A stretch of DNA of 32,092 nucleotides. It comes from Oscillospiraceae bacterium (GTDB taxonomy: Bacteria > Bacillota > Clostridia > Oscillospirales > Ruminococcaceae). A program made the position numbers and the translations under genes. Each line of letters starts with the position of its first letter. The stretch's first letter is position 1. The stretch covers positions 1 to 32,092 of the forward strand of contig JAFLUH010000019.1 in assembly GCA_022508895.1 (NCBI GenBank), in the 5' to 3' direction. Under the pieces are notes generated by a model that made no database searches, was not told the origin of the DNA, and was given only the letters and a program-made list of their open reading frames with translations. This document shows positions 1 through 28,807 of this stretch, in pieces.

Positions 1-1
1 C

Positions 2-43
2 TATGCCGTAATGAAGGACGCCGATAATGCTGCCGTAAGCTGA
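2..43 (+). CDS. C-terminal end of a fourth condensation-like acyltransferase (5' truncated by window edge)
   Basis: The frame starting at base 2 reads YAVMKDADNAAVS and then stops with TGA at 41-43. This tail matches the ends of the three complete proteins that follow, which finish RVAKDSDEQIL, YLAQDSKTQVL and VVKDSQTAVL. All share a hydrophobic residue, then K/Q-D-S/A, and then six to eight residues to the stop. I infer that this is the end of another paralog of the same family, so the tandem array probably holds at least four genes. The next gene's ribosome binding site starts only a few bases after the stop. Only 13 residues are visible, so the family assignment rests on this short match and on position. 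Confidence 0.6.
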   Translation, partial: YAVMKDADNAAVS

Positions 44-60
44 CGAAAGGAGAACGTAAA

Positions 61-1278
61 TTGAGCGGCAATAAGGAACTGTATTTGAAATATGGTCCAC
101 GCAACCTGCTTTGGCTTATGGATCATTACAACGATATCCACATACGCTTTTCAGCGGAGCTTGACCGTGAGATCGACGGTGAGCTTATGGAAAAAGCATG
201 GGAGAAAACCGTAAGGGTTTACCCTGCCATCGGCTGTGTCATCGAAATGGAAGGCAAGGAGCTGTTTTTTTACAAGGCAGACGGAGAAAACAAAGCGATA
301 AAAAGCAAGGCAGTGATAAATCCAGGAAGCAGGCTTGTATCGGGCTGTGTTGTCACTGCGACCTATTACGGAAACAGGGTGTCGGTAAGTGCCTATCATA
401 CGATGGTGGACGGCGGAGGCTTGAATGAGATATTCAAGACGCTTCTTTATTTTTATATTTCCTCCTATACGGGTACATACGACGAACCTGTCACCGTCCA
501 GACGGCAGAGGGCAGAGCGCCGGAGGAATACTACAGACCGGTTTCTCCCGACGAGCTTGGCGACTTTACTCCCGTACCTCTGCATACCGTGCCTTATCTG
601 AGGGAATTTGCGGAAGACGCCGATATGGAAGCCGACGAAGACGGAAATAAATTGTTTGCGTCCGTAAGGTTTTCCGCCGACGCCTTTATCGGCAAATGCA
701 AAGAGATCGGAGCAAATCCCACCGCTATGCTTGCTCTGCTGACGTCGAAGGCATTCTATGCGCTTAATCCCGGTGAGCAAAAGGATATTTTCTTTGAGAT
801 AACCACAAGCGTAAGGAAGATATTCGGAGCAGAGGGCTGCATCTCAAACTGCACCTCCGACGTTATCGCAGATGTGTGCTATGATGATGTAAACGGTGAT
901 GTGAAGGATTTTGTGAAAAAATTCCGTGCCGAAATGGACAGCCAGCGCTCAGCGGATTATGTAAAGACTAAAAGACAGCTTACGAGCACCTATGAGCTGA
1001 ATCCCGTAAACAAGAAAATAACTCTCACATATATCGGGAGCTTGGACATTGGCGAGAATACAAAGAATATCACGGATTTTGAGATGGTCACAAATGCTGC
1101 GCAGCTTCTGATGCTGATGCAGCTTGGCGATGAATTCCGCCTGATGCTGGAATTCGGGAAGGCAACGCAGAAATATATCGACAAGATAAGCGAGCTGCTT
1201 CGGGATATGGGTATCGAAGTAAAACCCGCCTCTGAGCTGCACAGGGTAGCTAAGGATTCCGATGAGCAGATATTGTGA
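61..1278 (+). CDS. Condensation/acyltransferase-like protein, paralog 1
   Basis: This 405-residue soluble protein has no signal peptide. Residues H113-TMV-D117-G118 form the HxxxDG motif of the CoA-dependent acyltransferase fold, which includes NRPS condensation domains, alcohol acetyltransferases and BAHD enzymes. In this superfamily the histidine acts as the general base for transfer of an acyl or peptidyl group to an amine or alcohol. A second conserved block, TYIGSLDIGENTKNITDF, sits near residue 322 and recurs in both following proteins. The start is TTG at 61, chosen because AAAGGAG lies 8 nt upstream and no better ATG is available. It is the most divergent of the three complete paralogs and lacks the roughly 18-residue insert before H113 found in the other two. 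Superfamily membership is well supported; the substrate is unknown. Confidence 0.75.
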   Translation: MSGNKELYLKYGPRNLLWLMDHYNDIHIRFSAELDREIDGELMEKAWEKTVRVYPAIGCVIEMEGKELFFYKADGENKAIKSKAVINPGSRLVSGCVVTATYYGNRVSVSAYHTMVDGGGLNEIFKTLLYFYISSYTGTYDEPVTVQTAEGRAPEEYYRPVSPDELGDFTPVPLHTVPYLREFAEDADMEADEDGNKLFASVRFSADAFIGKCKEIGANPTAMLALLTSKAFYALNPGEQKDIFFEITTSVRKIFGAEGCISNCTSDVIADVCYDDVNGDVKDFVKKFRAEMDSQRSADYVKTKRQLTSTYELNPVNKKITLTYIGSLDIGENTKNITDFEMVTNAAQLLMLMQLGDEFRLMLEFGKATQKYIDKISELLRDMGIEVKPASELHRVAKDSDEQIL

Positions 1279-1296
1279 TAAAAGGAGAAATACAGT

Positions 1297-2577
1297 ATGG
1301 CGGATAAAAATAAAGTGATCGCCGATCTGGGGCTTATCACCGAAACCACATTGGGACAGGATCTTTTCAATCCCATACACATAAGATACAAGGCCGTTCT
1401 GGATCACGATATAGATGAAGAGCTTTTTAAAAAAGCATGGGAAAAAATCAAGAGAGTATATCCCATCGTTGACGCAGTTCTTGGGCTTGAAAGCGGCGAC
1501 GTGGGATTTTACATGGATCCTGCCGTAAGAGAAAAGCACAGTAAGGATCATGCATATCTGGTTCAGCCGGAAAGCGGCAGAAACGACCCTGTCAAAAGCA
1601 GGGTGCCTATTGAGCCGGGCTGCGAGCTGGTGGGCGGACGCCTGATATGCGTCAGCTTCTACGAAAGAACGGTGACAATAAGCACATATCACGCACTGGT
1701 GGACGGCGGCGGATTGAATACGATCTTTACTGCGTTTCTGTATGAATATCTTGTTCTGTATACGGGTCATGAAGATGAAGCTCCCGTTGTTGACCTTACG
1801 GAGGGCAGGGATATCGGCGATTACTATCAGGGCGCCACATTGGACTATGTTTTTTCTCAGGAGTATACGCCGGTGCCGTTATATACGCTGCCTCTCGGAT
1901 GTACCGGCTTTCGTGACGACGACATGGTAAAGGATAGTGACGGCGTTGTTTCAGGTACTCTTAATGTACCCGTCAAGGAATTTATAAAGTTCTGCAAGGA
2001 AAACGGTGCAAACCCGTCGTCAATGATGTGTACGCTTTTGGCCAAGGCGGCGTATGCACTCAATCCCGAAGTTCAGGACGATATCGTTTTCGACCTTACC
2101 GTATCGGTGAGAAATATACTCGGCATCGAGAGAACCGTGGCAAATTCCGTGGGTCTTGCCGTAGCTTATACTACCCGTGACGATATAACGAACAGGACGG
2201 TTGCCGAGATCTCGCAGAAAATACGCAGGGACGTGGATATACAGCGTACCAAGGATCACTATATATCCTTCCGCAGGCTGTTTTATACCTACAAGCACGC
2301 ACCCTCGTATAAGGCGAGAACAGTAACATATATAGGGGCCCTGAATGTAGGCGACAATAACCGCCATATAGTGGATCTCGATTTAGGGACGAACAGCCTT
2401 TACAATCTTTATATGATGCAGCTGAACGATAAGTTTATCATTACGCTTCAGCACGGAAAGGCTACCGAAAAGTACATGAACGAATTGGTAAAGCTCTTTT
2501 CCGAGCATGGCATAAAGGCTGAGGTAAAGCATTCTGCACATTATCTTGCACAGGATTCAAAGACTCAGGTCCTGTGA
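1297..2577 (+). CDS. Condensation/acyltransferase-like protein, paralog 2
   Basis: This 426-residue cytosolic protein is a paralog of its neighbours. The acyltransferase motif is H132-ALV-D136-G137 (YHALVDGGG). The later conserved block TYIGALNVGDNNRHIVDL and the segment IRRDVDIQRTKDH also align with the next gene. It is clearly closer to paralog 3 than to paralog 1: both have DPV-K/R-S before the motif, FYMDP near residue 70 and LYTGxEDE after it. AAAGGAG precedes the ATG, and the gap to the upstream stop is 18 nt, so the genes are co-transcribed. No carrier-protein, adenylation or thioesterase domain is fused. The role is inferred as acyl or peptidyl transfer in an unknown pathway. Confidence 0.75.
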   Translation: MADKNKVIADLGLITETTLGQDLFNPIHIRYKAVLDHDIDEELFKKAWEKIKRVYPIVDAVLGLESGDVGFYMDPAVREKHSKDHAYLVQPESGRNDPVKSRVPIEPGCELVGGRLICVSFYERTVTISTYHALVDGGGLNTIFTAFLYEYLVLYTGHEDEAPVVDLTEGRDIGDYYQGATLDYVFSQEYTPVPLYTLPLGCTGFRDDDMVKDSDGVVSGTLNVPVKEFIKFCKENGANPSSMMCTLLAKAAYALNPEVQDDIVFDLTVSVRNILGIERTVANSVGLAVAYTTRDDITNRTVAEISQKIRRDVDIQRTKDHYISFRRLFYTYKHAPSYKARTVTYIGALNVGDNNRHIVDLDLGTNSLYNLYMMQLNDKFIITLQHGKATEKYMNELVKLFSEHGIKAEVKHSAHYLAQDSKTQVL

Positions 2578-2601
2578 TAATAAATCAAGGAGGAATATAT
2601 C

Positions 2602-3876
2602 ATGGATAAAAGTAAAATACTTGTTGATCTTGGCACTGTAGGTGAGGTCAAACTGAGCCATGATCTGGAAAATCCGGTCCATATAAGGCTCACTGCCACA
2701 CTTGACCATGAGCTCAGCGACGAGCTTATAGTCAAAGCATGGGACAGGACAAAAAGGGTCTATCCGGTTATTGACGCGGTTTTGGGCTTTGAACACGGCG
2801 ATTTGTCCTTTTATATGGATCCAAAGGCGAAGGCTCAATACAGTGAGAAGCATATTTATCTTGTGCAGGCGGAGGAAGGGAAAAACGATCCCGTGAGATC
2901 CAAAGCTCCGATCGTACCGGGAACCGAAACGGTGGGCAAACGCCTTATCTGTATCAGCTACTTCGGAAGCAGGGTTTCCATCGGTGCGTATCACATACTG
3001 GTGGACGGCACGGGACTCAGCAAGATATTCAATACATTCCTTTATTCGTATCTTGCGCTGTATACGGGGCAGGAAGACGAAAAGCCCGTTGTCGAGCTGA
3101 CAGAGGGAAGAAAGCCGGAGGAATACTATATATCTCCTTTGAACAGGTTTATCTATCAGCAGGAATACACGCCTGTTCCGCTGTATCTGCTCCCCCCCGG
3201 CTGCCGCGGATTTATGGATCAGGGATTTCAGGTGGACGGAAATTGTTATACCGGCAGTCTGAGTGTTCCGGCGGCGGATTTTATGAAGCTCTGCAAGGAA
3301 ATCGGAGCCAATCCCTCGGCTATGCTCTGTATACTTACGGCAAAGGCAGCTTATGCACTCAATCCCGAAGAAACGAACGATATTTTATTCGGCATGACAT
3401 TAGCGCTGAAGAGTGCGCTGGGAATTGACGATGCGATTTCAAATGCTTCCAGCTTTGCATTATCATACGCTTCCAGAGATGAGATCTTGAATAAACCGCT
3501 TTCAGGGGTCTCACAGAGAATACGCAGGGATGTGGATATGCAGCGTACCAGAGATTACATTATCACCTCCCAGAGGTCTGCGTCTACCTTTATATACTCT
3601 CCGCAGCTGCGCCCAAGAATGGTAACATATCTCGGCGCCGTAAATATAGGAGACAATACCGGTCACATCGTGGATTTCTCCTTGGAAACGGACGCACATC
3701 TCGTTGTTTATATGATACAGCTGAAGGACAGATTTATAATCCCCCTTCAGTATGACAACCTGACGGAAAAGTACCTTAATGAATTTAAAAAGGCACTGGG
3801 CGAGCTGGGTGTAGCGGCGGAAATATCTCAGCCTGCGTCTCTTGTTGTTAAGGACTCACAGACCGCAGTGCTGTAG
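2602..3876 (+). CDS. Condensation/acyltransferase-like protein, paralog 3
   Basis: This 424-residue protein has the motif H131-ILV-D135-G136 (YHILVDGTG), followed by the conserved block TYLGAVNIGDNTGHIVDF and the segment IRRDVDMQRTRDY. AAGGAGG lies upstream of the ATG, 24 nt after the previous stop. It keeps every motif of paralog 2, so neither copy looks degenerate at the presumed active site. Retention of several intact active sites suggests that the paralogs act on different acyl donors or acceptors rather than being redundant. There is no signal peptide or membrane segment. The downstream neighbour is only a fragment of an ABC exporter ATPase, which may once have exported the product; that link is inference. 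Confidence 0.75.
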   Translation: MDKSKILVDLGTVGEVKLSHDLENPVHIRLTATLDHELSDELIVKAWDRTKRVYPVIDAVLGFEHGDLSFYMDPKAKAQYSEKHIYLVQAEEGKNDPVRSKAPIVPGTETVGKRLICISYFGSRVSIGAYHILVDGTGLSKIFNTFLYSYLALYTGQEDEKPVVELTEGRKPEEYYISPLNRFIYQQEYTPVPLYLLPPGCRGFMDQGFQVDGNCYTGSLSVPAADFMKLCKEIGANPSAMLCILTAKAAYALNPEETNDILFGMTLALKSALGIDDAISNASSFALSYASRDEILNKPLSGVSQRIRRDVDMQRTRDYIITSQRSASTFIYSPQLRPRMVTYLGAVNIGDNTGHIVDFSLETDAHLVVYMIQLKDRFIIPLQYDNLTEKYLNEFKKALGELGVAAEISQPASLVVKDSQTAVL

Positions 3877-3902
3877 GGGGACGCAAAGCCGTATAAAAAT
3901 CA

Positions 3903-3916
3903 TTTCATATATGAAA
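3903..3916. repeat. 14-bp perfect palindrome
   Basis: TTTCATATATGAAA is its own reverse complement. It lies in the short gap between acyltransferase paralog 3 and the ABC ATPase remnant. It could be an operator half-site pair or simply a by-product of the AT-rich junction left by a deletion. No -35/-10 pair is obvious beside it. Confidence 0.4.
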
Positions 3917-3927
3917 GGCCTTGAATC

Positions 3928-4206
3928 GTGTATTCAAAGGAGGGGGTTACCGATGAAGTCCTGAGCAAAGTTATCATAGACTGCGGTCTGGACGACTTTA
4001 TAAGCAAGAGTACGGACGGTGTTGAAACGGTGCTTGCAGAGGAAGCGGACATATCTGCCGGACAAAAACAGCTCATCACTATCGCAAGAGCAATGATAGA
4101 CGATGCACCTGTCCTCATTCTTGACGAAGCTGCATCATCGGTGGATACAAGAACGGAAAAGATCATTTCTGCGGCTATTGACAAGCTTAAAGGAGTAATT
4201 TTATGA
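3928..4206 (+). pseudogene. Remnant of an ABC-transporter ATPase (signature and Walker B only)
   Basis: The 92-residue reading frame matches the middle of an exporter-type ABC nucleotide-binding domain. It starts at the YxKEGVTDEVL helix, continues through the signature region SAGQKQLITIARAM (residues 44-57) and ends just after Walker B and the D-loop, VLILDEAASSVDT. Walker A, the Q-loop and the transmembrane domain are missing upstream, where an in-frame TGA lies at 3922. The H-loop histidine and everything beyond it are missing downstream. It cannot bind and hydrolyse ATP alone, so I call it a pseudogene. The stop overlaps the start of the next gene (ATGA at 4203-4206), and AAAGGAG inside its end serves that gene. 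Translation of the fragment may therefore persist only because it feeds the debranching enzyme. Confidence 0.8.
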
Positions 4207-6299
4207 AACGAATAGATGAATTCCCCAGCCATGAGCTGAACGGCGTAAAATACAAAGCGGGAAAGGCAATGCCATTCGGCGCAAATGTACTGGATCACAG
4301 CACGGTCAATTTTTCGGTATATTCAAATGACGCTACCGCCTGTTCGCTGGTATTGTATCATTTGGGCGACGCCGAGCCGTACATAGAGATACCCATACCC
4401 GAGGAATTTCACATCGGAAGCGTTTACTCGATAATGGTATTTGACCTTGACTGGGAAAACACCGAGTACGGCTACCGTTTTGACGGACCCTATGACCTGA
4501 AAAACGGCTACTGCTTCGATAAGACCAAAATAGTTCTCGACCCGTATGCCAAGCTGGTGTCAGGACGTGAGCAGTGGCACACAAGGCAGTACCCGAAGGA
4601 CGGATTTCAGTTCAGGGGACGCATAATCCGTGAGGATTATGACTGGGAAGGGGATCTGCCGCTGGGTACGCCGATGAAGGACCTTGTCATTTATGAGATG
4701 CACATAAGAGGCTTTACAAACGACAGCTCCAGCGGCGTCAAAAACAGGGGCACCTTCGCCGGCGTTATCGAAAAGATACCTTATCTCAAGGAGCTGGGGA
4801 TAAACTGTGTCGAGATAATGCCGATGTTTGAATTCGAGGAATTTTTCCCTGCTCTTACCGATGAATACTGCAACTACTGGGGCTACTGCACCTGCAACTA
4901 TTTTTCCCCGAAGGCGGGCTATGCGGCACTTGGAAAAATGGGACTTGCGGCCGACGAGATGAAGAACATGGTCAAAAAGCTGCATAAAAACGGCATCGAG
5001 GTAATTCTTGACATAGTTTTCAATCACACTGCGGAATACGGCGACGGCGGCGAATATATCTCATTCAGAGGTGTGGACAACAAAACATATTACCTTATGA
5101 ACGACGACGGTACATATTCAAATCTGTCAGCCTGCGGCAACACAATGAACTGCAATAACCCCATAGTGCGTAATTTTATTATCGATTCCCTCAGATACTG
5201 GGTCTCCGATTACCATATCGACGGCTTCAGGATAGACGAAGCGCCGATATTCGCAAGAGGACAGGACGGCAAGCCGATGGTAAGTCCTCCCCTTGTCGAT
5301 TCGCTGAAAAACGACCCTGTTTTAAGCCGTACAAAGCTTATTTCCGAGGGCTGGGACCCTGCAGGACTGTTTACGATAGGAAAATTTCCGAAGGGCTGGG
5401 CTGACTGGAATCCCCGCATGAGAGATACCGTCAAGAGATTTGCAAAGGGTGTTGCGGAAGCGGGTCCCGAGCTTATCGCATCTATCGAAGGCTCGCCCGA
5501 TATGTTCCCTGACGGGACTCCCGATTCCTCCGTAAATTACGTTACCTCTCACGACGGATTCACTTTATACGATACCACGGCCTACAACAACGCACACAAC
5601 GAGTCCAACGCCTATACGTCTCCGATGGACTCGGAGTTTGACAACTGTTCATGGAACTGCGGCGTCGAGGGCGAAACGGACGACCCGGAGGTCAACTCCC
5701 TCAGAAAAAGGCAGATAAAGAATATAATGACCGTCCTTATGCTGTCAAGAGGCGTTCCTATGTTCTGGGCAGGGGACGAATTTGCCAATACTCAATACGG
5801 GAACAACAATGCCTTTTCACAGGATACCGAGGTATCATGGCTGGACTGGAACAGATTACAAAAGTACAATGATGTATTTGAGTATGTTAAAGGATTGATA
5901 GCATTCCGCAAGGAGCATCCCGTTATAAGGAAGGCAGATTACTTTACGGGACATAATTCATCGGATTATCCCGAGCTTTCATGGCACGGGGAACAGGCAT
6001 GGAGCTTTGACAGAAATTCACCCTTCCTTACCTTTGGATTTATGTACAGCGAGCCTGCAAAGGATTTCGGCACAGACGAGGACTGCTTTATTTACTGTGC
6101 ATATAATTCCCATTGGGAGGAGCACGGCTTTGAGCTTCCCGTTATCCCGGAGGGAATGGAATGGAGCATCGTGCTTTACTCGGCAGATGAAAAAGGCGAA
6201 TGCACGGGAAAAAAAGTACAGGATAGGGTCAACCTGTGTCCAAGAAGCAGTATGATCCTCATCGGCAAAAAGATGAGCGGTCGCAGGAGGAAAAAATGA
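4203..6299 (+). CDS. glgX: Glycogen debranching enzyme / isoamylase-type GH13
   Basis: This 698-residue protein has the length and layout of GlgX and isoamylases. An N-terminal CBM48-like beta-sandwich covers about residues 20-115, followed by the GH13 barrel and a C-terminal beta domain. The family motifs are present: DIVFNHT near residue 275, GFRIDEA with nucleophile D345, SEGWDP with acid/base E382, and TSHDGF with D451. It is expected to cleave alpha-1,6 branches of cytosolic glycogen; there is no signal peptide. ATG at 4203 has AAAGGAG seven bases upstream and overlaps the preceding stop, and its own stop overlaps the next start (ATGA). No glgA, glgB, glgC or glgP gene is beside it. A type I pullulanase is the alternative reading. 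Confidence 0.9.
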   Translation: MKRIDEFPSHELNGVKYKAGKAMPFGANVLDHSTVNFSVYSNDATACSLVLYHLGDAEPYIEIPIPEEFHIGSVYSIMVFDLDWENTEYGYRFDGPYDLKNGYCFDKTKIVLDPYAKLVSGREQWHTRQYPKDGFQFRGRIIREDYDWEGDLPLGTPMKDLVIYEMHIRGFTNDSSSGVKNRGTFAGVIEKIPYLKELGINCVEIMPMFEFEEFFPALTDEYCNYWGYCTCNYFSPKAGYAALGKMGLAADEMKNMVKKLHKNGIEVILDIVFNHTAEYGDGGEYISFRGVDNKTYYLMNDDGTYSNLSACGNTMNCNNPIVRNFIIDSLRYWVSDYHIDGFRIDEAPIFARGQDGKPMVSPPLVDSLKNDPVLSRTKLISEGWDPAGLFTIGKFPKGWADWNPRMRDTVKRFAKGVAEAGPELIASIEGSPDMFPDGTPDSSVNYVTSHDGFTLYDTTAYNNAHNESNAYTSPMDSEFDNCSWNCGVEGETDDPEVNSLRKRQIKNIMTVLMLSRGVPMFWAGDEFANTQYGNNNAFSQDTEVSWLDWNRLQKYNDVFEYVKGLIAFRKEHPVIRKADYFTGHNSSDYPELSWHGEQAWSFDRNSPFLTFGFMYSEPAKDFGTDEDCFIYCAYNSHWEEHGFELPVIPEGMEWSIVLYSADEKGECTGKKVQDRVNLCPRSSMILIGKKMSGRRRKK

Positions 6300-7525
6300 C
6301 GCTTTTAACTACCGAGTTTGAAAATGGCGCTCTGACCGTATATATGTGCAGCCGGATAGACACAAATAACGTAACCGACATACACAATGAAATAGAGGAA
6401 GCGCTCAGGACAAACGATGTGTCTGCCGTTACTGTCGACGCCGCTAAGCTTGAATATATTTCAAGCGTTGGGCTGAGAGAAATGCTGAGTCTCAGGAAAA
6501 AATATGACGATTTTAAGATCATCAATGTTTACGACAAGGTGTACGAAATTTTTAACACCACAAATTTTACGGAGATAATGACTGTCAAAAGGGCATACAG
6601 AAGCGTTTCCGCTGACGGCTGTGTAATGCTTGGAAAAGGCGCCTGCGGTACGGTGTATAAGCTTGACGATGAGACGATAGTCAAGGTATTCGTCGACGGC
6701 TATGAGCTTGAAAAGATCGAAAAGGAAAGAGACAATTCACGCAATGCTTTCACTCACGGAGTTGACACTGCGATCCCCTTTGACATCGTAAAGGTCGGCG
6801 ATAACTACGGACTTATCTATGAGATAATAAATGCCGATACGCTTAAAAACATTATGCTAAAAGAGCGTGACAAATTGGAATACTACATCGGTATTTACGC
6901 AGATTATGTCAGGAATATGCACGGCGTCAGCTTTGACAGGGATTGCTATCCGGACATGAAGAAGGTCTGGGCAGAAAAGATAGCCGCACCGGAAGGCGTT
7001 TTAACGGAGGAAGAAAAAACGGCCGCCCAAAAGCTCATTGAAATGATACCTGACAGAAAGAATTTCAATCACGGCGATATGAATCTCGGCAACCTTATGG
7101 CAGAAAACGGCAAAGCTGTCCTGATAGATCTGGAAGATGCGGTACTGGGACACCCCATATTTGACGTATCCTTCATATACTATCTGTTAAAGCTGATGCC
7201 GGACTTTTTGCCGGCGGAGGTGTGTGAGATCGTTACGTCGTTTACAAAGGACGAAAATGAGCTTATGTGGAGCAAATTCTGTGAGGTTTATTTCGGAAGC
7301 AGGACTGCGGAGGAACGTGCCGTATATGAAAACCAAATACACCCATACGGCATAATAAAGCTGATGGAAGTGATACCGTTCTACTATGCGGTATTTGATT
7401 CCGCCGAGGACGAAAACAAGAAATATGTTCCCATATTGTATGCCGCATTCAGACCGGCAGTTGAAAAATTTAAAAAAGAGCTTTTGGAAGCGGCTGAAAA
7501 CGGTAAAGCTATTTTGGCTTTTTAA
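6296..7525 (+). CDS. STAS domain fused to an aminoglycoside-phosphotransferase-like kinase
   Basis: I start this 409-residue protein at ATG 6296, because AGGAGG lies at 6285-6290 and the ATG overlaps the stop of glgX; an upstream in-frame GTG at 6236 has no such site. Residues 1-95 form a STAS domain like anti-sigma-factor antagonists. It contains LEYISSVGLR, where S57 aligns with the serine phosphorylated in SpoIIAA. From about residue 105 a kinase-like fold follows: a glycine-rich LGKGACGTVYKL, the catalytic HGDMNLGNL with D261, and IDLED with D278. The kinase half resembles the phosphotransferase family TIGR02172 (named from memory). The fusion suggests a regulatory switch whose STAS half may be phosphorylated by an RsbW-type kinase. 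The kinase substrate is unknown; glgX is the obvious functional neighbour. Confidence 0.8.
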   Translation: MTLLTTEFENGALTVYMCSRIDTNNVTDIHNEIEEALRTNDVSAVTVDAAKLEYISSVGLREMLSLRKKYDDFKIINVYDKVYEIFNTTNFTEIMTVKRAYRSVSADGCVMLGKGACGTVYKLDDETIVKVFVDGYELEKIEKERDNSRNAFTHGVDTAIPFDIVKVGDNYGLIYEIINADTLKNIMLKERDKLEYYIGIYADYVRNMHGVSFDRDCYPDMKKVWAEKIAAPEGVLTEEEKTAAQKLIEMIPDRKNFNHGDMNLGNLMAENGKAVLIDLEDAVLGHPIFDVSFIYYLLKLMPDFLPAEVCEIVTSFTKDENELMWSKFCEVYFGSRTAEERAVYENQIHPYGIIKLMEVIPFYYAVFDSAEDENKKYVPILYAAFRPAVEKFKKELLEAAENGKAILAF

Positions 7526-7532
7526 TTTTAAA

Positions 7533-7700
7533 ATGAATATTACAAAAATTTCCGAGGAAGATAAGCTTATAATAAATATTGAGGGCAGACCTGATACTGC
7601 TGCAGCACCTCAGCCGGAGAATAAGCTCAGCAGTTCAATTGAAGATGGGATTTACATATTACGGAAAAGGGGAGCGATAAAATGCCGGAGCTTAAATTAA
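7533..7700 (+). pseudogene. Truncated STAS anti-sigma-factor antagonist
   Basis: The reading frame starts MNITKISEEDKLIINIEGRP and continues DTAAAPQPENKLSSSIEDG, the typical first 40 residues of clostridial stand-alone STAS antagonists. The middle part, with the phospho-serine motif (LEYISSAGLR in relatives), is absent. After residue 41 the frame turns into unrelated IYILRKRGAIKCRSLN and stops. In another frame the same bases end GFTYYGKGER and stop at 7678-7680, which could be the old C-terminus. This would fit an internal deletion of roughly 50 codons. The gene follows the STAS-kinase by 7 nt, so it once belonged to the same operon. The N-terminal match is visible in the sequence; the deletion is inferred. 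Confidence 0.65.
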
Positions 7701-7866
7701 AGGCGGTTAACGATAATCTGAGCAAAGCCACCGACTTTATAAATGAGATACTGGAGGAAAACGGCTGCTCCATGAACGCACAGATGCAGATAGATATTGC
7801 GCTAATGTGATTTATGAGTATTCGGAAAATAAAAATAAGCTTGTTGTTACCAAGAAATTGAGTTGA
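7682..7866 (+). pseudogene. Internally deleted RsbW-like anti-sigma kinase (HATPase)
   Basis: ATG 7682, preceded by an AGGGGAG site, begins MPELKLKAVNDNLSKATDF and reaches AQMQIDIA, the standard first 40 residues of clostridial RsbW/SpoIIAB-like ATP-binding proteins. Instead of the N-box (EIFVNI type), the frame hits TGA at 7808. From 7801 in another frame, the bases read ANVIYEYSENKNKLVVTKK and stop at 7864-7866. That resembles the family's C-terminal strand pair, typically V-x-Y-E-Y-x-x-x-K-N-x-L-x-x-x-K-K. Thus both ends survive while the whole ATP-binding core is gone. Together with the preceding STAS remnant this was a partner-switching pair next to the STAS-kinase fusion. The protein cannot be functional as it stands. 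Confidence 0.7.
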
Positions 7867-7891
7867 TATACGGTAATATTCAAAATTTTAA

Positions 7892-8040
7892 ACCGCAGAA
7901 AAGCCGGTGGAGACGCTGTCAAATACCGTTTGCGCTATGAGTGACAAGGCGACCGTTACCGCGGCGGCGGTGAATGTGGGAGCGGGGAGGATAGACTTTA
8001 CGTTGGATAAGCATGAGGCGATAAAGTGGATATTGCAGAG
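7892..8040 (+). pseudogene. Unidentified coding remnant before a terminator
   Basis: Following a stop at 7889, this frame stays open with protein-like content: AEKPVETLSNTVCAMSDKA, then a stretch containing VNVGAGRIDFTLDKHEAI and KWILQRKSR. It then runs straight into the terminator stem at 8041 without its own stop; the first in-frame stop is inside the opposite-strand gene. There is no ribosome binding site in front. It looks like the 3' part of a lost gene, possibly from the same decayed operon. I do not recognise the family. With 7526-8040 containing only remnants, this is the one gene-poor stretch longer than 300 bases in the window. Confidence 0.35.
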
Positions 8041-8069
8041 AAAAAGCCGAGAGGGTATCTCGGCTTTTT
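8041..8069. terminator. Bidirectional intrinsic terminator
   Basis: AAAAAGCCGAGA (8041-8052) pairs perfectly with TCTCGGCTTTTT (8058-8069) around the loop GGGTA. The A-run and T-run on the two sides make it work on both strands. It ends the decayed plus-strand operon and, on the minus strand, lies immediately after the stop of the HTH-VOC gene at 8071. Confidence 0.9.
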
Positions 8070-8070
8070 G

Positions 8071-8922
8071 TTATTTTCTCCACCTGTTCAGCTTCGGCAG
8101 CTCTTTCATGAGTATCTCTCTCGCTTCTTCCTCAGTCCTGCACTCCTCGCCCTCTAACATAAACGGAATACAGCTTTCCACCATCTCCTCCAGCGTCTCG
8201 TCCCTGCTGAATTTTCCGTCGGGGAAGCAGTATCTGCAATACTCACGGCTTGCAGTTCCGTCGGCGTTCCTGCCGTAGTCCTCCTCCTTTGTCATTCTCA
8301 TGCCGCAGCTCTGGCAAATGCTTTCTTTCATGTCGTAGCCTCCTGTTATTTCGATAACGTTGTTGTCGGGGTCGAAAAGATGAAAGTAGCGGTAGCCTGG
8401 GTATGCCTCTCTTATCTCGGTCACAGTGCCGATTTGCAGGTCTGTCACTCTGCGGTATTCCGTCATTAAGTCCTCCACCCAGTAATTCTGCACGAATTTG
8501 TAGGGACTGTTCCGCTCCGTGGCGTGCCCTATGATATTGTCCTCGTTCATCAGCGCAAGGCACTTGTTGTCAAAGAAAAATTCCACGAATTTGTTGCCGC
8601 TGCGGCAGCGGTCGGAAACGCTCATGCCGAGGAATTTCTCGTAAAAAGCCACAGAGCGCTCAAAGTCCTTCACCACTAAATAAATACAGCCCAAATGGAG
8701 GGGATTTTCCTTGGTCGGCTCCTGCGGCTCTCTTAGCAGCAGCTTGTCGGTGGTAACGCCGAACAGCTCGCTCATGCGGATTATCTTGTCCACGTCGGGG
8801 ACAGCCTGACCAAGCTCCCATTTTGAAACCGACTGCCTTGAAACCTCCAACAGCTCCGCAAACTGCTCCTGCGTGAGATTTTTTGCAATGCGGAGATTTT
8901 GTATCTGCTCGCCTATCGTCAT
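8071..8922 (-). CDS. HTH (XRE) - VOC/glyoxalase - zinc-ribbon fusion protein
   Basis: This 283-residue protein has three domains. Residues 1-60 are an XRE/Cro-type helix-turn-helix (IGEQIQNLRIAKNLTQEQFA, then VSRQSVSKWELG). Residues about 75-195 form a VOC/glyoxalase-like domain (LGCIYLVVKDFERSVAFYEKFLG to FDPDNNVIEITGGYD). Residues about 200-283 form a putative zinc ribbon, with CQSCGM and CRYC supplying four cysteines, plus a helical tail that resembles Zn_ribbon_2-type domains. It is likely a cytosolic regulator that senses a small molecule or metal through the VOC domain. A palindrome just upstream (8945-8956) suggests autoregulation. XRE plus VOC and VOC plus zinc ribbon each occur separately; all three in one chain is unusual. 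The ligand is unknown. Confidence 0.85.
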   Translation of the reverse strand: MTIGEQIQNLRIAKNLTQEQFAELLEVSRQSVSKWELGQAVPDVDKIIRMSELFGVTTDKLLLREPQEPTKENPLHLGCIYLVVKDFERSVAFYEKFLGMSVSDRCRSGNKFVEFFFDNKCLALMNEDNIIGHATERNSPYKFVQNYWVEDLMTEYRRVTDLQIGTVTEIREAYPGYRYFHLFDPDNNVIEITGGYDMKESICQSCGMRMTKEEDYGRNADGTASREYCRYCFPDGKFSRDETLEEMVESCIPFMLEGEECRTEEEAREILMKELPKLNRWRK

Positions 8923-8944
8923 CTTTTTGCCCGTCCTTTCCTGG

Positions 8945-8956
8945 TGAGGTACCTCA
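8945..8956. promoter_or_regulatory. Candidate operator palindrome for the HTH-VOC gene
   Basis: TGAGGTACCTCA is a perfect 12-bp palindrome 22 bp upstream of the HTH-VOC start codon. It lies between that start and a minus-strand TATACT (-10-like, 8964-8969). This is where a repressor would block transcription from that promoter. No good -35 box is present at 17 bp spacing. Binding by the adjacent XRE protein is inference. Confidence 0.5.
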
Positions 8957-9012
8957 TGGGTTTAGTATAGCAGAGCGGACGGGTCAAATCCACCAATCTG
9001 GCGTGGAACTTT

Positions 9013-17285: not shown

Positions 17286-18203
17286 ATGACAATACGCGAA
17301 ATGCAGGACAGGATACTGCAATTAAAAAAGGAAAAGGACTTTTGCATATTGGCTCACAGCTATATCAAAAGGGAGATAATAGAGACAGCCGACATAGTAG
17401 GCGACAGCTTCAAGCTCAGTCAGGACGTGTGCAGCGCCAAGCAGAAAAACATACTTTTCTGCGGCGTTCACTTTATGGCGGAGACCGCAAAAATGCTGAA
17501 CATGGACAAGCACGTTTATTTAGCGAACGGCCTGGCGGGCTGTCCCATGGCGGAGCAGATGGAGCCCGAAATGCTGCTGTACATGAAAAAGCAGGAGCCT
17601 GACCGCAAGGTGGTGGCGTATATCAACACCACGGCGGCATTGAAGCGGCACTGCGACGTGTGCGTCACCAGCTCCTCCGCAGTGGAGATAGTGCGGAAGA
17701 TGGAGGCGGATAAGATACTGTTCATACCCGACTGCAACTTAGGAAATTACGTCAGGGAAAGCGTTCCCGAAAAGGACATAAAGTTAGTGCAGGGCGGCTG
17801 CCCCATTCACGCCTCCGTCACCGTCGAAGAAGCTGAAGCGGCAAAATCGGCTCACCCCGAAGCTTTGCTTTTAGTGCACCCCGAATGTGTTCCCAAGGTG
17901 GTTGAGAAGGCGGATTACGTCGGCTCCACCTCGGGCATTATCTCCTACGCCAAGAAGTCGAATGCAAAGCAGTTCATTATCGGCACCGAATATGAAATTG
18001 CGGAGACCCTGCAGTATGAGTGCCCCGACAAGGAGTTCTTTATCCTGTCCAAAAAGCTGCTCTGCCCCAACATGAAGCTGACCACTCTCGTGGACGTGCT
18101 GAACACCCTCGAACACCCCGAAAACGGCTTTGAGATAACCATGACCGAGGAGGAAGCGGCTGAAGCCCGCTTTTGCATAGATGAAATGCTTCGTCTGGGC
18201 TAA
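17286..18203 (+). CDS. nadA: Quinolinate synthase A
   Basis: This 305-residue protein starts at ATG 17286; an upstream in-frame TTG lies inside the -10 box and cannot be the start. NadA condenses iminoaspartate with dihydroxyacetone phosphate to quinolinate for NAD synthesis, using a 4Fe-4S cluster. The three cluster cysteines fit C86 (LAGCPMAE), C171 (QGGCPIH) and C260 (LLCPNMK), at spacings like those of structurally known NadA. ILAHSYIKREI at residues 21-31 and CVTSSSAVEIVRKM are also typical. It stands alone: nadB and nadC, which usually follow, are not in the window, and the opposite-strand gene overlaps its last 4 bases. Confidence 0.96.
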   Translation: MTIREMQDRILQLKKEKDFCILAHSYIKREIIETADIVGDSFKLSQDVCSAKQKNILFCGVHFMAETAKMLNMDKHVYLANGLAGCPMAEQMEPEMLLYMKKQEPDRKVVAYINTTAALKRHCDVCVTSSSAVEIVRKMEADKILFIPDCNLGNYVRESVPEKDIKLVQGGCPIHASVTVEEAEAAKSAHPEALLLVHPECVPKVVEKADYVGSTSGIISYAKKSNAKQFIIGTEYEIAETLQYECPDKEFFILSKKLLCPNMKLTTLVDVLNTLEHPENGFEITMTEEEAAEARFCIDEMLRLG

Positions 18204-19456
18204 CGCCCCCTGACTGCCTTCAGCAGTCTGTTCAGCTCCTCGCAGTCCTCCCTTGTGGGACTGTAATCGTGATACCGCAGCCGCTCATACTTCTCAACGA
18301 CATTTTCGGCAAGAACACCGTCATATATACGCCCTCTCGCCAGATGCACCCCCGTGGTGTCGGAGGGCGTATTTTCATTTTTTCTGCCCAGCAGCAGCAT
18401 GAACGCCTTGTAGCCGAGGCGGTATTTTTTTGTAAGGTCCTTTTCTCTTGCAAAGGCTCTGTACGCCTTGCCGTAGGTGCTCGTTTTCCGCTGGCGTTCG
18501 CTTTCCTCGTAAATGTCCGTGTAGGAGGCGTCAGCGTTCTTGCTTGCGGGTCTTATCTTCAGGTATTTGCGAAGGGAGACTATCAGCTTTTTTATATATT
18601 TTATCAGCAGGAATACGCCCACCGCCACCAATGCCGCCGCTATCAGGTAAAAGACTGCCCGCACAAAGGGGTTTTCATTGTTCGGTATCTCTATGTCGGG
18701 AGCCCCCATGTCCATCTGCTCCAGATCCACCAAGCTGCCAAGATTCTGCAGTATGTTCAGCAGCCACAGTATAAACGCCTTTACCGCTTCCCACAGCCAC
18801 TTAGCCCCAAAGCCTGCAAACAAAAACAGAAACAGCAGTATCCCCGAAAAAGTCAAGGTTTTCTTCAGGTTGAAGCTTACCGTGGCTTTTGACATGGCAA
18901 GCTCTTTCCCGCCGCCCTGATATGAGAGCTGTTCAAGGTGCCGTATATTCAGTATGATCGCTCCTATCACTGTCAGAACGGCGGTCGTTATCAAAATCGG
19001 CGTGGAGCCGATACTGTTGTTTTCCTCAAAGGCTTTGCACATAGGGTAGGCAAAGACAGCCTCCACGCAGTAAGCTCCCATTGCGCCCGCAGGCAGCACC
19101 TCTCTGCCGCCTCCCAGCCTGTACCCGAACCAGTAGCAGAAAGCCATTGCAATAGGCACAAACAGCATGGAAACGCTGTTGTCTCCCACTGCCGCCATCA
19201 GCCACAGGCAAAGTGCGACCACCACTGCGCCTGCGAAGACGGACGCTATTTTTATGAGCGCATATATCCTTTCGGGAGCCTTTTTCAGCAGCAGCCCCAG
19301 CCCCCCGCTCAGCAGCCACGCAGCCAGTCCCATTCCCGCATAAAACGCAAGCCGTGCAATATCCATGCTGCCGTTATCACCTGTGGCTGCGGTTATCATA
19401 AGGGGCAGAGGAGCCAGCAAAGCAAAAACAACCGACAGTATCCTTTCAGCTTTCAT
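18200..19456 (-). CDS. DUF4129-containing membrane protein, last gene of the MoxR operon
   Basis: This 418-residue protein has roughly six hydrophobic segments in its first 210 residues (for example FALLAPLPLMITAATG and VVVALCLWLMAAVG). A further membrane anchor lies near residue 265 (AVFYLIAAALVAVGVFLLI). A soluble C-terminal region (about 330-418) is arginine- and leucine-rich and contains YGKAYRAFAREKDLTKKYRL and YSPTREDCEELNRLLKAVR, resembling DUF4129. It sits where a TgpA-like protein sits in the first half of the operon but lacks a transglutaminase domain. Its start overlaps the DUF58 stop (19453-19456). Its end overlaps nadA convergently. The function is unknown, but it is probably a membrane partner of the MoxR/DUF58 pair. 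Confidence 0.7.
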   Translation of the reverse strand: MKAERILSVVFALLAPLPLMITAATGDNGSMDIARLAFYAGMGLAAWLLSGGLGLLLKKAPERIYALIKIASVFAGAVVVALCLWLMAAVGDNSVSMLFVPIAMAFCYWFGYRLGGGREVLPAGAMGAYCVEAVFAYPMCKAFEENNSIGSTPILITTAVLTVIGAIILNIRHLEQLSYQGGGKELAMSKATVSFNLKKTLTFSGILLFLFLFAGFGAKWLWEAVKAFILWLLNILQNLGSLVDLEQMDMGAPDIEIPNNENPFVRAVFYLIAAALVAVGVFLLIKYIKKLIVSLRKYLKIRPASKNADASYTDIYEESERQRKTSTYGKAYRAFAREKDLTKKYRLGYKAFMLLLGRKNENTPSDTTGVHLARGRIYDGVLAENVVEKYERLRYHDYSPTREDCEELNRLLKAVRGR

Positions 19457-26544: not shown

Positions 26545-26620
26545 ATGTGACTTTGCAGGCAAAGTCACATAGGCACAACCTCTACCGGTTACTGTGTACT
26601 TTTTACTGTCAACTGTCAAG
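26545..26620. repeat. Composite repeat: inverted repeat plus four 7-bp tandem units
   Basis: ATGTGACTTTGC (26545-26556) and GCAAAGTCACAT (26559-26570) form a perfect 12-bp inverted repeat split by AG. At 26593-26620 there are four heptamers: TGTGTAC, TTTTTAC, TGTCAAC and TGTCAAG. The GH74 stop codon is inside this array, and its last residues L-D-S are encoded by it. The layout mirrors 9013-9088. Confidence 0.78.
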
Positions 26621-28774
26621 GCTGCAAACCACAACGCCCAGCCCAACGGTACTTATATAGCACCGTCCGCACACATTTGCATCTCCCTTGATAAAGTACC
26701 CGTTGCCCATGCCGCCGAACTGATAATCGCCGTTGACCTGCCGCCAGCTTTTTCCGTCGTCGGTGGACCAGTAGATGCCCATGGGGTCGTCGGAGGTGGG
26801 TCTGCCCCAGATATATACTGCCTCCTGACCGTCGCTCATGCCCTTGCCCACGCCTACGCCGAGACAGCCTGCCGCACTGTCTATCCTTGTGAAGCTCTGA
26901 CCGTGGTCGGTGGACTTCTGCAATCCCATTGCAGGAAGATACAGCACGCCCTCTTTGCCGGGGACCACTGCTATCTTCATGGAGGAGGACATGGCGGTGA
27001 AGGTCTCGGTGAAGGTGGCGCCCTTATCGCTGCTGACGTAGAAGGAGCCGCTGCTTGAAGCGTAGATGTAATCGCTGTTCACGGGGTCGCCCGCTATGCT
27101 GGCTGTGACGTATATTCCCGAGGACTGAGCCCAGCTTCCGCCGTTATCGTCGGTGTAGTAAAGGGAAAATGAACCGTCGGGAGCCCAGAAGAAGCGGGAG
27201 CCGTCGGCGGAGACACCCACAACGCCTCCGCCTGCGCCGCTTACAGGGTCTGATTTTGCCTTCTGCCATGTGGCGCCTGCGTCGAGGGTGTACCAGAACC
27301 CGCCGTCCTTGCCGCACTTCACCCAGACGTCTGCATTTCCGTAAGCCACTGCTATATCGGTCATCGACCCAGCCTGACTGTTGTGCACGTCGCCGTAGGT
27401 GAAGGGGTCGTCGTTGACGAAGCCGTCGTAGTCCAGCACTGCGGTCACGATAGGACCGCCCGGGATAGTTGCCAGACCCATGGGCACCGTTTCCTCGATG
27501 CCCTTGGAATCGAAGTAAAACTCGGGGGCGGACGCCCAGATATTGTCGCAGGCAAAAATTCCGTTGCCTGACGTCACCTTTATCTGACTGTCGAAGAAGG
27601 GGCTTATTGCAAGACAGCCGCACCAATGTATGGCGGCGTTGGCTATCCAGTCTATCTCCCCTGTCGTGAAGGTCATGCTTTCGTTTATGCAGTGCCAGGC
27701 TGCGCCGCCGTCGGAGGTAACGTAAAATTCGTCGCCGTAAGCTCCGTTAGGCTGCTCCGTCCAAACGTTTTCGGTGACTGCGACCATCTTGTCGGGGTCG
27801 TCGGGGGAGATAGCAACGTCGCCGAAGCTGCGGTTTGCGGGGCTGATGTCCTCCACCTCGCCGCTTCCGATATTCAGCCGCATAATGCCGCCCGTGCCGC
27901 TGCCGCCCCAAGGGCCCTCCGAATCGGCGTAAACGATTATCAGACCGCCCCGTCCGTCCAGCCTCATGCGCTGGGGAACAAGGTTTGTGGGCAGACCGCT
28001 TACCGCCGTCCAGCTCTCGCCGCCGTCCTCGCTGACGAAAACGTTGTTCTCGCCGCCCTTGGAGATACCCGCAAAAATACGCAGGCAGGCGGAGCCGTCG
28101 GAGGAATCCGTATCCACCGCAACGGTGCACACGCCGCTGCCTGAATTGACTGCTGCGGCGTCGGACAGCGACTGTACGGCCGTCCATGTCCTGCCGCCGT
28201 CGGTACTCTTTATAAGACCGCCCGTTCTGCCGCCCAGATAAAGAATGTCGTTGTTTACGGGGTCGATGGCTATGCGTTCGCCGTTTTGCCTGCCCATGCC
28301 GTTGCCGCTGGCGGAGATAAGGTCCGTGACCTCCACCTCCTCGAAGCTGTCGCCGTAGTCGTCGGATATAAGCACCCACGTCCTGCCGTTGCTGAAATAG
28401 GAGGTGCCCGCCACCAGATAGAGCTTGTTCGGCTCGTCAGGGTCAACTGCCAGACCGTCAATGCCCATCATGCCTACATTCTCCTCGGTAACGCCGTAGG
28501 AGAGGGAAATCCATTTTCCCTGTCCCTCGTCCCAGCGGTAAGCTCCGCCTACGTCGGTCCTTGCGTAGTACAGGTCCTCCTGCGAGGTGGAGAAAACGCC
28601 TGTCACATATCCGCCGCCGCCCATCGCAAGCTGACTGTAGCTCCAGTCGCCCTCCGGAGTGGCAGCGCCGCCGTCATTGCCGTTATTGCCGTCATTGCCG
28701 CCCGTGCAGGCAGCCAGCATTGCCGCCGCCGTCAGCAAAGCCGACAGCTTCAGCAGGTTTTTTCTTATAAACAT
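26609..28774 (-). CDS. GH74 xyloglucanase-like lipoprotein
   Basis: I start this 721-residue protein at the ATG ending at 28774, because AAAGG lies eight bases before it and it gives a clean signal peptide (MFIRKNLLKLSALLTAAAML) with lipobox L-A-A-C23. A Gly/Asn-rich linker follows. The rest forms the two seven-bladed propellers of GH74, with BNR-like SxDGGxxW repeats (DDYGDSF, STDGGRTW, SEDGGESW, TLDAGATW, SDKGATF). The family signature YARTDVGGAYRW supplies Asp74, and VLDYDGF supplies Asp448 as likely second catalytic residue. GH74 enzymes cut the beta-1,4-glucan backbone of xyloglucan. There is no dockerin or CBM; membrane anchoring through lipid is the apparent solution. It is divergent from a beta-helix carbohydrate-binding lipoprotein. 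Confidence 0.92.
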   Translation of the reverse strand: MFIRKNLLKLSALLTAAAMLAACTGGNDGNNGNDGGAATPEGDWSYSQLAMGGGGYVTGVFSTSQEDLYYARTDVGGAYRWDEGQGKWISLSYGVTEENVGMMGIDGLAVDPDEPNKLYLVAGTSYFSNGRTWVLISDDYGDSFEEVEVTDLISASGNGMGRQNGERIAIDPVNNDILYLGGRTGGLIKSTDGGRTWTAVQSLSDAAAVNSGSGVCTVAVDTDSSDGSACLRIFAGISKGGENNVFVSEDGGESWTAVSGLPTNLVPQRMRLDGRGGLIIVYADSEGPWGGSGTGGIMRLNIGSGEVEDISPANRSFGDVAISPDDPDKMVAVTENVWTEQPNGAYGDEFYVTSDGGAAWHCINESMTFTTGEIDWIANAAIHWCGCLAISPFFDSQIKVTSGNGIFACDNIWASAPEFYFDSKGIEETVPMGLATIPGGPIVTAVLDYDGFVNDDPFTYGDVHNSQAGSMTDIAVAYGNADVWVKCGKDGGFWYTLDAGATWQKAKSDPVSGAGGGVVGVSADGSRFFWAPDGSFSLYYTDDNGGSWAQSSGIYVTASIAGDPVNSDYIYASSSGSFYVSSDKGATFTETFTAMSSSMKIAVVPGKEGVLYLPAMGLQKSTDHGQSFTRIDSAAGCLGVGVGKGMSDGQEAVYIWGRPTSDDPMGIYWSTDDGKSWRQVNGDYQFGGMGNGYFIKGDANVCGRCYISTVGLGVVVCSLDS

Positions 28775-28807
28775 AGCATTCGCCTTTCCTGTCAAGTTGA
28801 TAATGTT

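Follow-up and report, generated by a model that had tools for sequence, protein, structure and literature searches.

What would a series of free-standing, condensation-like acyltransferases be doing beside a glycogen debranching enzyme and a STAS-domain kinase? The question is raised by the first 3,876 nucleotides of contig JAFLUH010000019.1 (assembly GCA_022508895.1) of an Oscillospiraceae bacterium. The window analysed here is that entire contig (C87; 32,092 nucleotides), within a 175-contig draft genome. Three intact acyltransferase (AT) open reading frames (ORFs) lie head to tail at 61–3876 on the forward strand. We propose, with a probability a little under one half (about 0.45), that this array forms the centre of a cluster dedicated to acylation in several steps, which would combine acid activation, stepwise acylation of an α-glucan-derived acceptor, export and gating by STAS phosphorylation, the product and the gating being predictions.

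The three complete genes encode AT3 (61–1278; 405 amino acids, TTG start; YHTMVDGG), AT4 (1297–2577; 426 amino acids; YHALVDGG) and AT5 (2602–3876; 424 amino acids; YHILVDGT), all condensation-like, with the motif histidine at H113, H132 and H131, respectively, and the aspartate four residues on in each. They are preceded at 2–43 (forward strand) by the C-terminal tail of AT2, whose full gene was located on another contig, C10 (L005:57–1271, reverse strand), by sequence match. ORFs and motif positions agree with an earlier sequence-only reading of this DNA, which had described three intact HxxxDG paralogs and the tail of a fourth; the second shared block that it had noticed was found in all three complete copies. 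C10 (5,275 bp), read on its reverse strand, ends in 96 bases that match window positions 1–99 at 94% and span the AT2 stop and the AT3 start, and in a relative, Ruminococcus sp. RUG14211, AT1, AT2, AT3 and the start of AT4 are contiguous in the same order. From this end overlap and the unbroken AT1–AT4 order we strongly infer that C10 adjoins the start of the window, a junction made by overlap rather than by assembly. C10 holds AT2 (404 amino acids), AT1 (408 amino acids), a 626-residue ligase with STAS and AMP-binding domains, and a fragment of another GlgX. Counted upstream of base 1, the array thus gains two complete copies and reaches five, the total also returned by a genome-wide search; the four others are 25–51% identical to AT4, and four gaps between array genes measure 12–24 bp.

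A STAS–acyl-CoA-ligase fusion stands at the head of the array, so the earlier statement that adenylation genes are missing has to be withdrawn; carrier protein genes, also said to be missing, were indeed absent among the cluster proteins scanned. Downstream, the array is separated from GlgX by the remnant of an ABC exporter gene, ABC2 (3925–4206, forward strand; 88 residues, 76% identical to residues 437–524 of the 581-residue protein of Eubacterium sp. RUI459), and the picture of GlgX as the next intact gene was to that extent incomplete. The GlgX/isoamylase-type GH13 enzyme (4203–6299, forward strand) carries the GH13 catalytic motifs and is followed on the same strand by a STAS-APH kinase-like protein (6296–7525) with HGDxxxxN...D present, for which the ORF finder gave a GTG start at 6236.

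The cluster was found in seven genomes: the window's own, two of the same genus (G011 and G716), Eubacterium cellulosolvens (L011), Eubacterium sp. RUI459 (L012), Ruminococcus sp. RUG14211 (L013; cut by the contig end) and Lachnospiraceae RGIG4981 (L014/G686; spread over three contigs). The two acyltransferases of G011 and G716 are 98.7–99.5% identical, so that these genomes represent in effect one lineage. Gene order is conserved in all six relatives, and across the clusters the gene set comprises a ligase, two to six acyltransferases, two ABC half-exporters, one or two GlgX, the STAS-APH kinase, STAS, HATPase and a SpoIIE-type phosphatase. Six acyltransferases are encoded in both Eubacterium clusters and two in G011 and G716. 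The ligase lies beside the acyltransferases in 7/7 genomes. Where the contigs reach that far, GlgX directly follows ABC2 or its remnant (6/6 genomes); three genomes have a second GlgX, and the window's genome probably has the remnant of one. Four genomes encode both ABC1 and ABC2 in full. In G686 a contig break divides ABC2 and ABC1 is whole, the window's genome keeps the ABC2 remnant, and the L013 contig does not cover the stretch. STAS-APH occurs in five genomes (cut in G716).

The arrangement of the remaining genes varies. In both Eubacterium clusters a SpoIIE-type phosphatase gene lies between the first and the second GlgX, and in E. cellulosolvens the acyltransferase, exporter, GlgX and phosphatase genes are intact. 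G686 has two GlgX genes followed by a solo STAS and a HATPase homolog (59% identical to that of G011). Two SpoIIE-type phosphatases and a HATPase precede the STAS-ligase in G011 and G716, and in G011 STAS-APH and a solo STAS are followed by a second ligase, which bears a HATPase-like tail. The first of the two cluster GlgX genes of RGIG4981 (L118:3397–5481, reverse strand) is split into 620 and 67 amino acids by an in-frame stop, either a gene break or a sequencing error.

With the neighbours tabulated in relatives, GlgX and the STAS kinase, which the sequence-only reading had regarded as odd company, prove to be conserved members of the cluster, and the conserved gene order makes the shared pathway that it had suspected likely. 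It had also entertained that homologs might always occur singly in unrelated contexts; this fails for the close homologs, which lie in the cluster in all seven genomes found, and holds for most of the remote ones, at about 20–26% identity.

All counts of distribution include the window's own genome. In a first search of 60 relatives, 22 gave a match at E 1e-3, strong full-length matches being confined to the window's genome and G011. Six of 71 genomes of the genus match at 1e-25, three of them carrying the cluster; the corresponding counts are 12/297 for the family and 7/394 for the order (both at 1e-20) and 1/398 for the phylum (at 1e-30), the last being the window's own genome. One peptide pattern, which picked out 39 stretches of which 4 were confirmed, was the source of all four named genomes, and further carriers may exist. 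An origin from plasmids or phages was rejected, as tblastn gave no match for AT4 against 72,556 plasmid records or for AT2 against 50,697 phage records. A description of the cluster was not found in the literature, in a search that covered open-licence papers, and the cluster is apparently undescribed so far.

The remote relatives were inspected in 17 regions from the order and family searches and 7 from the first search of relatives, and no ligase and GlgX were found beside the acyltransferase among the ORFs picked; flanks reached at most about 10 kb, contigs ended early, and the picker, which kept the longest of overlapping frames, hid the acyltransferase itself in one region (L086). STAS-APH lies near a remote relative in L049 and L085, and in L049, from a genome of the same genus, STAS-APH or APH genes recur several times around the relative and ABC genes (2604–7332 and 17300–18484). 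Remote relatives also occur near large ABC pairs (L048:1991–14996, L050, L075 and L076). In L048, from a genome of the same genus, the first ABC protein matches the NHLM peptide exporter model TIGR03796 over its cut-off; the locus also encodes a SpoIIE phosphatase and a HATPase, together with an ECF sigma factor. Arrays of Nif11-like leader peptides are present in L048 and L050, one of two tested in L048 being over cut-off, and loci of this type possibly represent an acylation system for ribosomally synthesized and post-translationally modified peptides.

The assignment of the array proteins was examined with an alignment of 23 members from six genomes (G011 copy a, two G716 copies, two L117 copies and copies cut at contig ends are not among them). 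Compared with a profile of 15 condensation domains, the alignment gave a probability of 94.1% (E 1.3e-7) over some 250 columns, the HxxxDG region among them; control comparisons with GlgX and STAS-APH alignments gave 0.3% each. To obtain the condensation set, 30 loci were retrieved; a clean central frame with the motif was present in 17, two of which were dropped as near-duplicates. A bridging family of 21 proteins, A4, gave 100% to the array family in a nearly full-length alignment and 97.3% to the condensation domains, and four of its members match PF00668 within E 0.1, the best at 1.3e-4. The 23-member profile matched one PDB chain, tyrocidine synthase 2 (E 0.029), at profile positions 98–147, which should span the motif. 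The motif histidine is conserved in 22/23 members, the aspartate in 23/23 and DG in 17/23; the DG exceptions are five AT1 proteins (DE) and copy 5 of RUI459 (DA). These comparisons support the condensation-like identity suggested by the sequence-only reading, and the array proteins are predicted to share the fold of condensation-type acyltransferases. In a Pfam scan of the 23 members up to E 0.1, PF00668 matched one (0.015), PF16911/PapA_C one (0.087) and PF07247 and PF02458 none; the five members of the window's genome all score under Pfam cut-offs, and no member reaches the curated cut-off of PF16911 or of PF00668, PF07247 and PF02458, the three families named for this check.

The acyltransferases fall into separate conserved subfamilies. 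In the tree, AT1 (5 rows, bootstrap support 100/100), AT2 (5 rows, 99/98), AT3 (4 rows, 100/100) and AT4 (5 rows, one partial, 91/94) each form a clade with one member per cluster whose complete copy was entered, G011 excepted; the two G011 copies lie outside on long branches, and AT5 of the window is placed only as far as the AT4–AT6 group. pN/pS was below 0.31 in all 12 comparisons, and omega (dN/dS) was 0.05–0.12 in the 8/12 with unsaturated dS, AT1 being highest. Recent duplication or a decayed array was rejected on the tree and pN/pS. Given positional orthology in the tree and purifying selection, the copies probably predate the lineage split or moved as a set, and each was retained. AT1–AT4 are thus each orthologous across species, with the compared pairs under purifying selection, as would be expected of specialised steps; the distinct copies for which distinct substrates had been suspected are borne out as subfamilies.

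Movement between lineages is partly supported by sequence identities, with Ffh as the sole housekeeping gene for comparison. The cluster GlgX of the window's genome is 80–84% identical to those of L011, L012 and L014 but 71–72% to that of the same-genus G011, whereas Ffh is 55–57% identical to the former and 81% to the latter. The STAS-ligase is 83% identical to that of L014 and 56% to that of L013, and AT2 and AT3 are 83 and 80% identical to those of L013, whose Ffh is at 67%. However, AT1, AT4, AT5 and STAS-APH are 44–55% identical to their counterparts in L011, L012 and L014, at or below Ffh, which counts against transfer.

The partner proteins have recognizable catalytic features. The STAS-ligase retains what we take to be the AMP-ligase motifs. 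Its closest matches are fatty-acid CoA ligases, and a PDB search at E 1e-60 gave a single entry, an oxalyl-CoA synthetase. The residues presumed to act in GH13 catalysis are intact in 6/6 GlgX proteins checked, for which isoamylase 1 and GlgX are the nearest structures. STAS-APH keeps HGDxxxxN and weakly matches aminoglycoside-type kinases and anti-sigma antagonists. ABC1 and ABC2, heterodimeric half-exporters, match MsbA (lipid A) models best and glucan-exporter models are among those that follow, no model reaching its cut-off. The [ST]SxGL motif, presumably with the phosphorylatable serine, is present in 13/13 STAS domains checked. In G011 and G716, SpoIIE and HATPase proteins over the Pfam cut-off are encoded beside the STAS-ligase; in L011 and L012, SpoIIE and a solo STAS are over cut-off and the HATPase-like tail on the ligase is below it. 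Two layouts of the switch can be distinguished, STAS on the ligase with a separate HATPase, or a separate STAS with a HATPase-like ligase tail, and both occur in G011. From this linkage we infer that the STAS, HATPase_c_2 and SpoIIE-type PP2C genes constitute a partner-switching set. No sigma factor was found among the annotated cluster genes, part of the flanking ORFs having been scanned.

In the window's genome the core, comprising the acyltransferases, ligase, GlgX and STAS-APH kinase, is intact. The surroundings hold, besides the ABC2 remnant, a solo STAS remnant (7533–7646, forward strand; 38–40 N-terminal residues, about 42% identity), an RsbW-like HATPase remnant (7682–7860, forward strand; 39 N-terminal residues at 46%, 7688–7804, and a weak C-terminal piece at 7813–7860, E 0.08) and the GlgX fragment on C10, which is slightly nearer to the second GlgX type (58% versus 53%, over 66–70 residues). 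ABC1 was not found on C10 or in window positions 1–9000, and the best other ABC2-like protein of the genome is 44% identical. Misassembly of the draft is possible but, given four separate remnants, unlikely. Either the pathway is decaying in this genome, or other exporters and regulators are used. Elsewhere in the genome (L120:6515–14225, G000:C88), an ABC pair 40–44% identical to the cluster exporter lies ahead of a gene for a pullulanase-type protein whose N-terminus is hydrophobic, a further case of this exporter type beside a GH13 protein.

In the proposed pathway, the ligase would activate a carboxylic acid to its CoA thioester, and AT2–AT5 would transfer acyl groups in sequence to acceptor hydroxyls, each with its own preference for position or donor; AT1, with HxxxDE, may be a divergent or accessory member. 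The acceptor would most simply be an oligosaccharide released or trimmed from α-glucan by GlgX, and the ABC pair would export the product. HATPase would phosphorylate the STAS domains on the ligase and the kinase, the SpoIIE-type phosphatase would reverse this, and the pathway could thereby be switched directly, without a sigma factor. A bolder version, which we consider unlikely, is partner switching with a metabolic rather than a transcriptional output: the linked HATPase and SpoIIE phosphatase would toggle the STAS fused to the acyl-CoA ligase (and kinase) and so gate a specialised acyltransferase chain that makes a new class of exported acylated α-glucan in rumen bacteria.

Several results weigh against the proposed pathway. 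A PF00668 search of the window's genome up to E 1 gave no match, AT4 alone had no PDB match up to E 10 and the A4 profile none up to E 1, and a chance-like DUF761 match (4/23 members; best E 0.0011, 18.9 bits, cut-off 22) outranks the Condensation match at 0.015; the PDB and Pfam results thus lend the predicted fold little weight. AT1 of RUI459 has arginine in place of the motif histidine. In 3/3 ligases of the second type the HATPase-like tail stays under the Pfam cut-off (E 5e-4, 6e-4 and 5e-5), and the parts of G686 that were read showed no STAS-APH. No glycosyltransferase was found among the annotated genes, so GlgX is the single gene that points to a sugar acceptor, and in the window's own genome both the exporter and the HATPase genes are reduced to remnants.

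A carrier-free cluster for a non-sugar small molecule, in which a polyol, polyamine or peptide is esterified or amidated and GlgX supplies carbon or is merely co-regulated, is conceivable though somewhat unlikely. Condensation-type enzymes accept many acceptors, and the L048 remote relative, near Nif11-type leaders and an NHLM exporter, suggests peptide acceptors for that branch; the place of GlgX next to ABC2 or its remnant in every covered genome, and its recurrence as a second copy, count against this reading. Decoration of the envelope seems quite unlikely. There the acyltransferases would modify a surface polysaccharide or envelope lipid together with a membrane Acyl_transf_3 protein and the exporter, with no soluble product. 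Pfam identifies an Acyl_transf_3 gene in L012; L014 has a homolog 59% identical to it, L011 encodes a protein whose N-terminus is nearly the same, and the nearest exporter models are of the lipid A and then the glucan type. However, the parts of the G011, G716 and window clusters that were read showed no homolog, and the five array proteins of the window's genome lack hydrophobic segments (highest 19-residue mean 0.84–1.35). A neighbourhood of unrelated genes, with tandem copies that arose by recent duplication and share no function, we regard as very improbable and, on the sequence evidence, as refuted: the several gene remnants do mark the window's locus as a region of turnover, but positional orthology across genera, the constant presence of the ligase and strong purifying selection all oppose it.

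The proposed acylation pathway has partial counterparts elsewhere. In the mycobacterial acyltrehalose loci the HxxxDG acyltransferases are the PapA proteins. Di- and poly-acyltrehaloses are reported to be made and exported in a coupled manner in these loci, which combine a FadD-type enzyme for acid activation, acyltransferase(s) that use a sugar as acceptor, and a dedicated transporter (PMC4183827). Ligase, HxxxDG acyltransferase and transporter are likewise together in the cluster, the transporter as a remnant in the window's genome and the sugar ester as a prediction. The cluster differs in that no polyketide synthase was seen, an ABC pair replaces MmpL, up to six paralogous acyltransferases are present, GlgX, STAS-APH and partner-switching genes are included, and no PapA Pfam match is over cut-off. 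In the plant acylsugar pathway, the BAHD acyltransferases ASAT1–4 are reported to act consecutively on one sugar and are fed by an acyl-CoA synthetase (PMC7386920). The cluster resembles it in having a series of HxxxD acyltransferases with such a ligase, action on one sugar being presumed; unlike the ASATs, its enzymes are not BAHD by Pfam and belong to a bacterial operon with exporter, GlgX and signalling genes.

Nonribosomal peptide synthetase (NRPS) condensation domains (PF00668) share remote homology over the approximately 250 columns already described; unlike them, the array enzymes are free-standing members of a row, the cluster proteins scanned include neither a carrier nor an NRPS adenylation domain, and the first histidine of HHxxxDG is absent in 23/23. 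An NRPS was rejected on the absence of carrier and adenylation domains from the proteins scanned, the affinity of the AMP-binding enzyme to fatty-acid CoA ligases and the empty PF00668 search. SpoIIA/Rsb partner switching is normally a phosphorylation switch in sporulation and stress response. As in those modules, STAS, HATPase_c_2 and SpoIIE types are all present and linked in the cluster; unlike there, STAS is fused to an acyl-CoA ligase and an APH-type kinase, and the annotated cluster genes include no sigma factor.

Further along, the window encodes a Cthe_2159 carbohydrate-binding protein (28928–30868; E 6e-92) with a long glycine-rich tail, and a lipoprotein-like BNR/Sortilin-repeat protein (26609–28795, reverse strand).

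If the proposed pathway is correct, rumen bacteria would have their own counterpart to the acyl-sugar pathways of mycobacteria and plants, run by as many as six specialised acyltransferases of a family that lies below every Pfam cut-off. It would also provide a case of partner switching wired straight into a metabolic ligase. The E. cellulosolvens cluster, with its intact acyltransferase, exporter, GlgX and phosphatase genes, makes the pathway testable.

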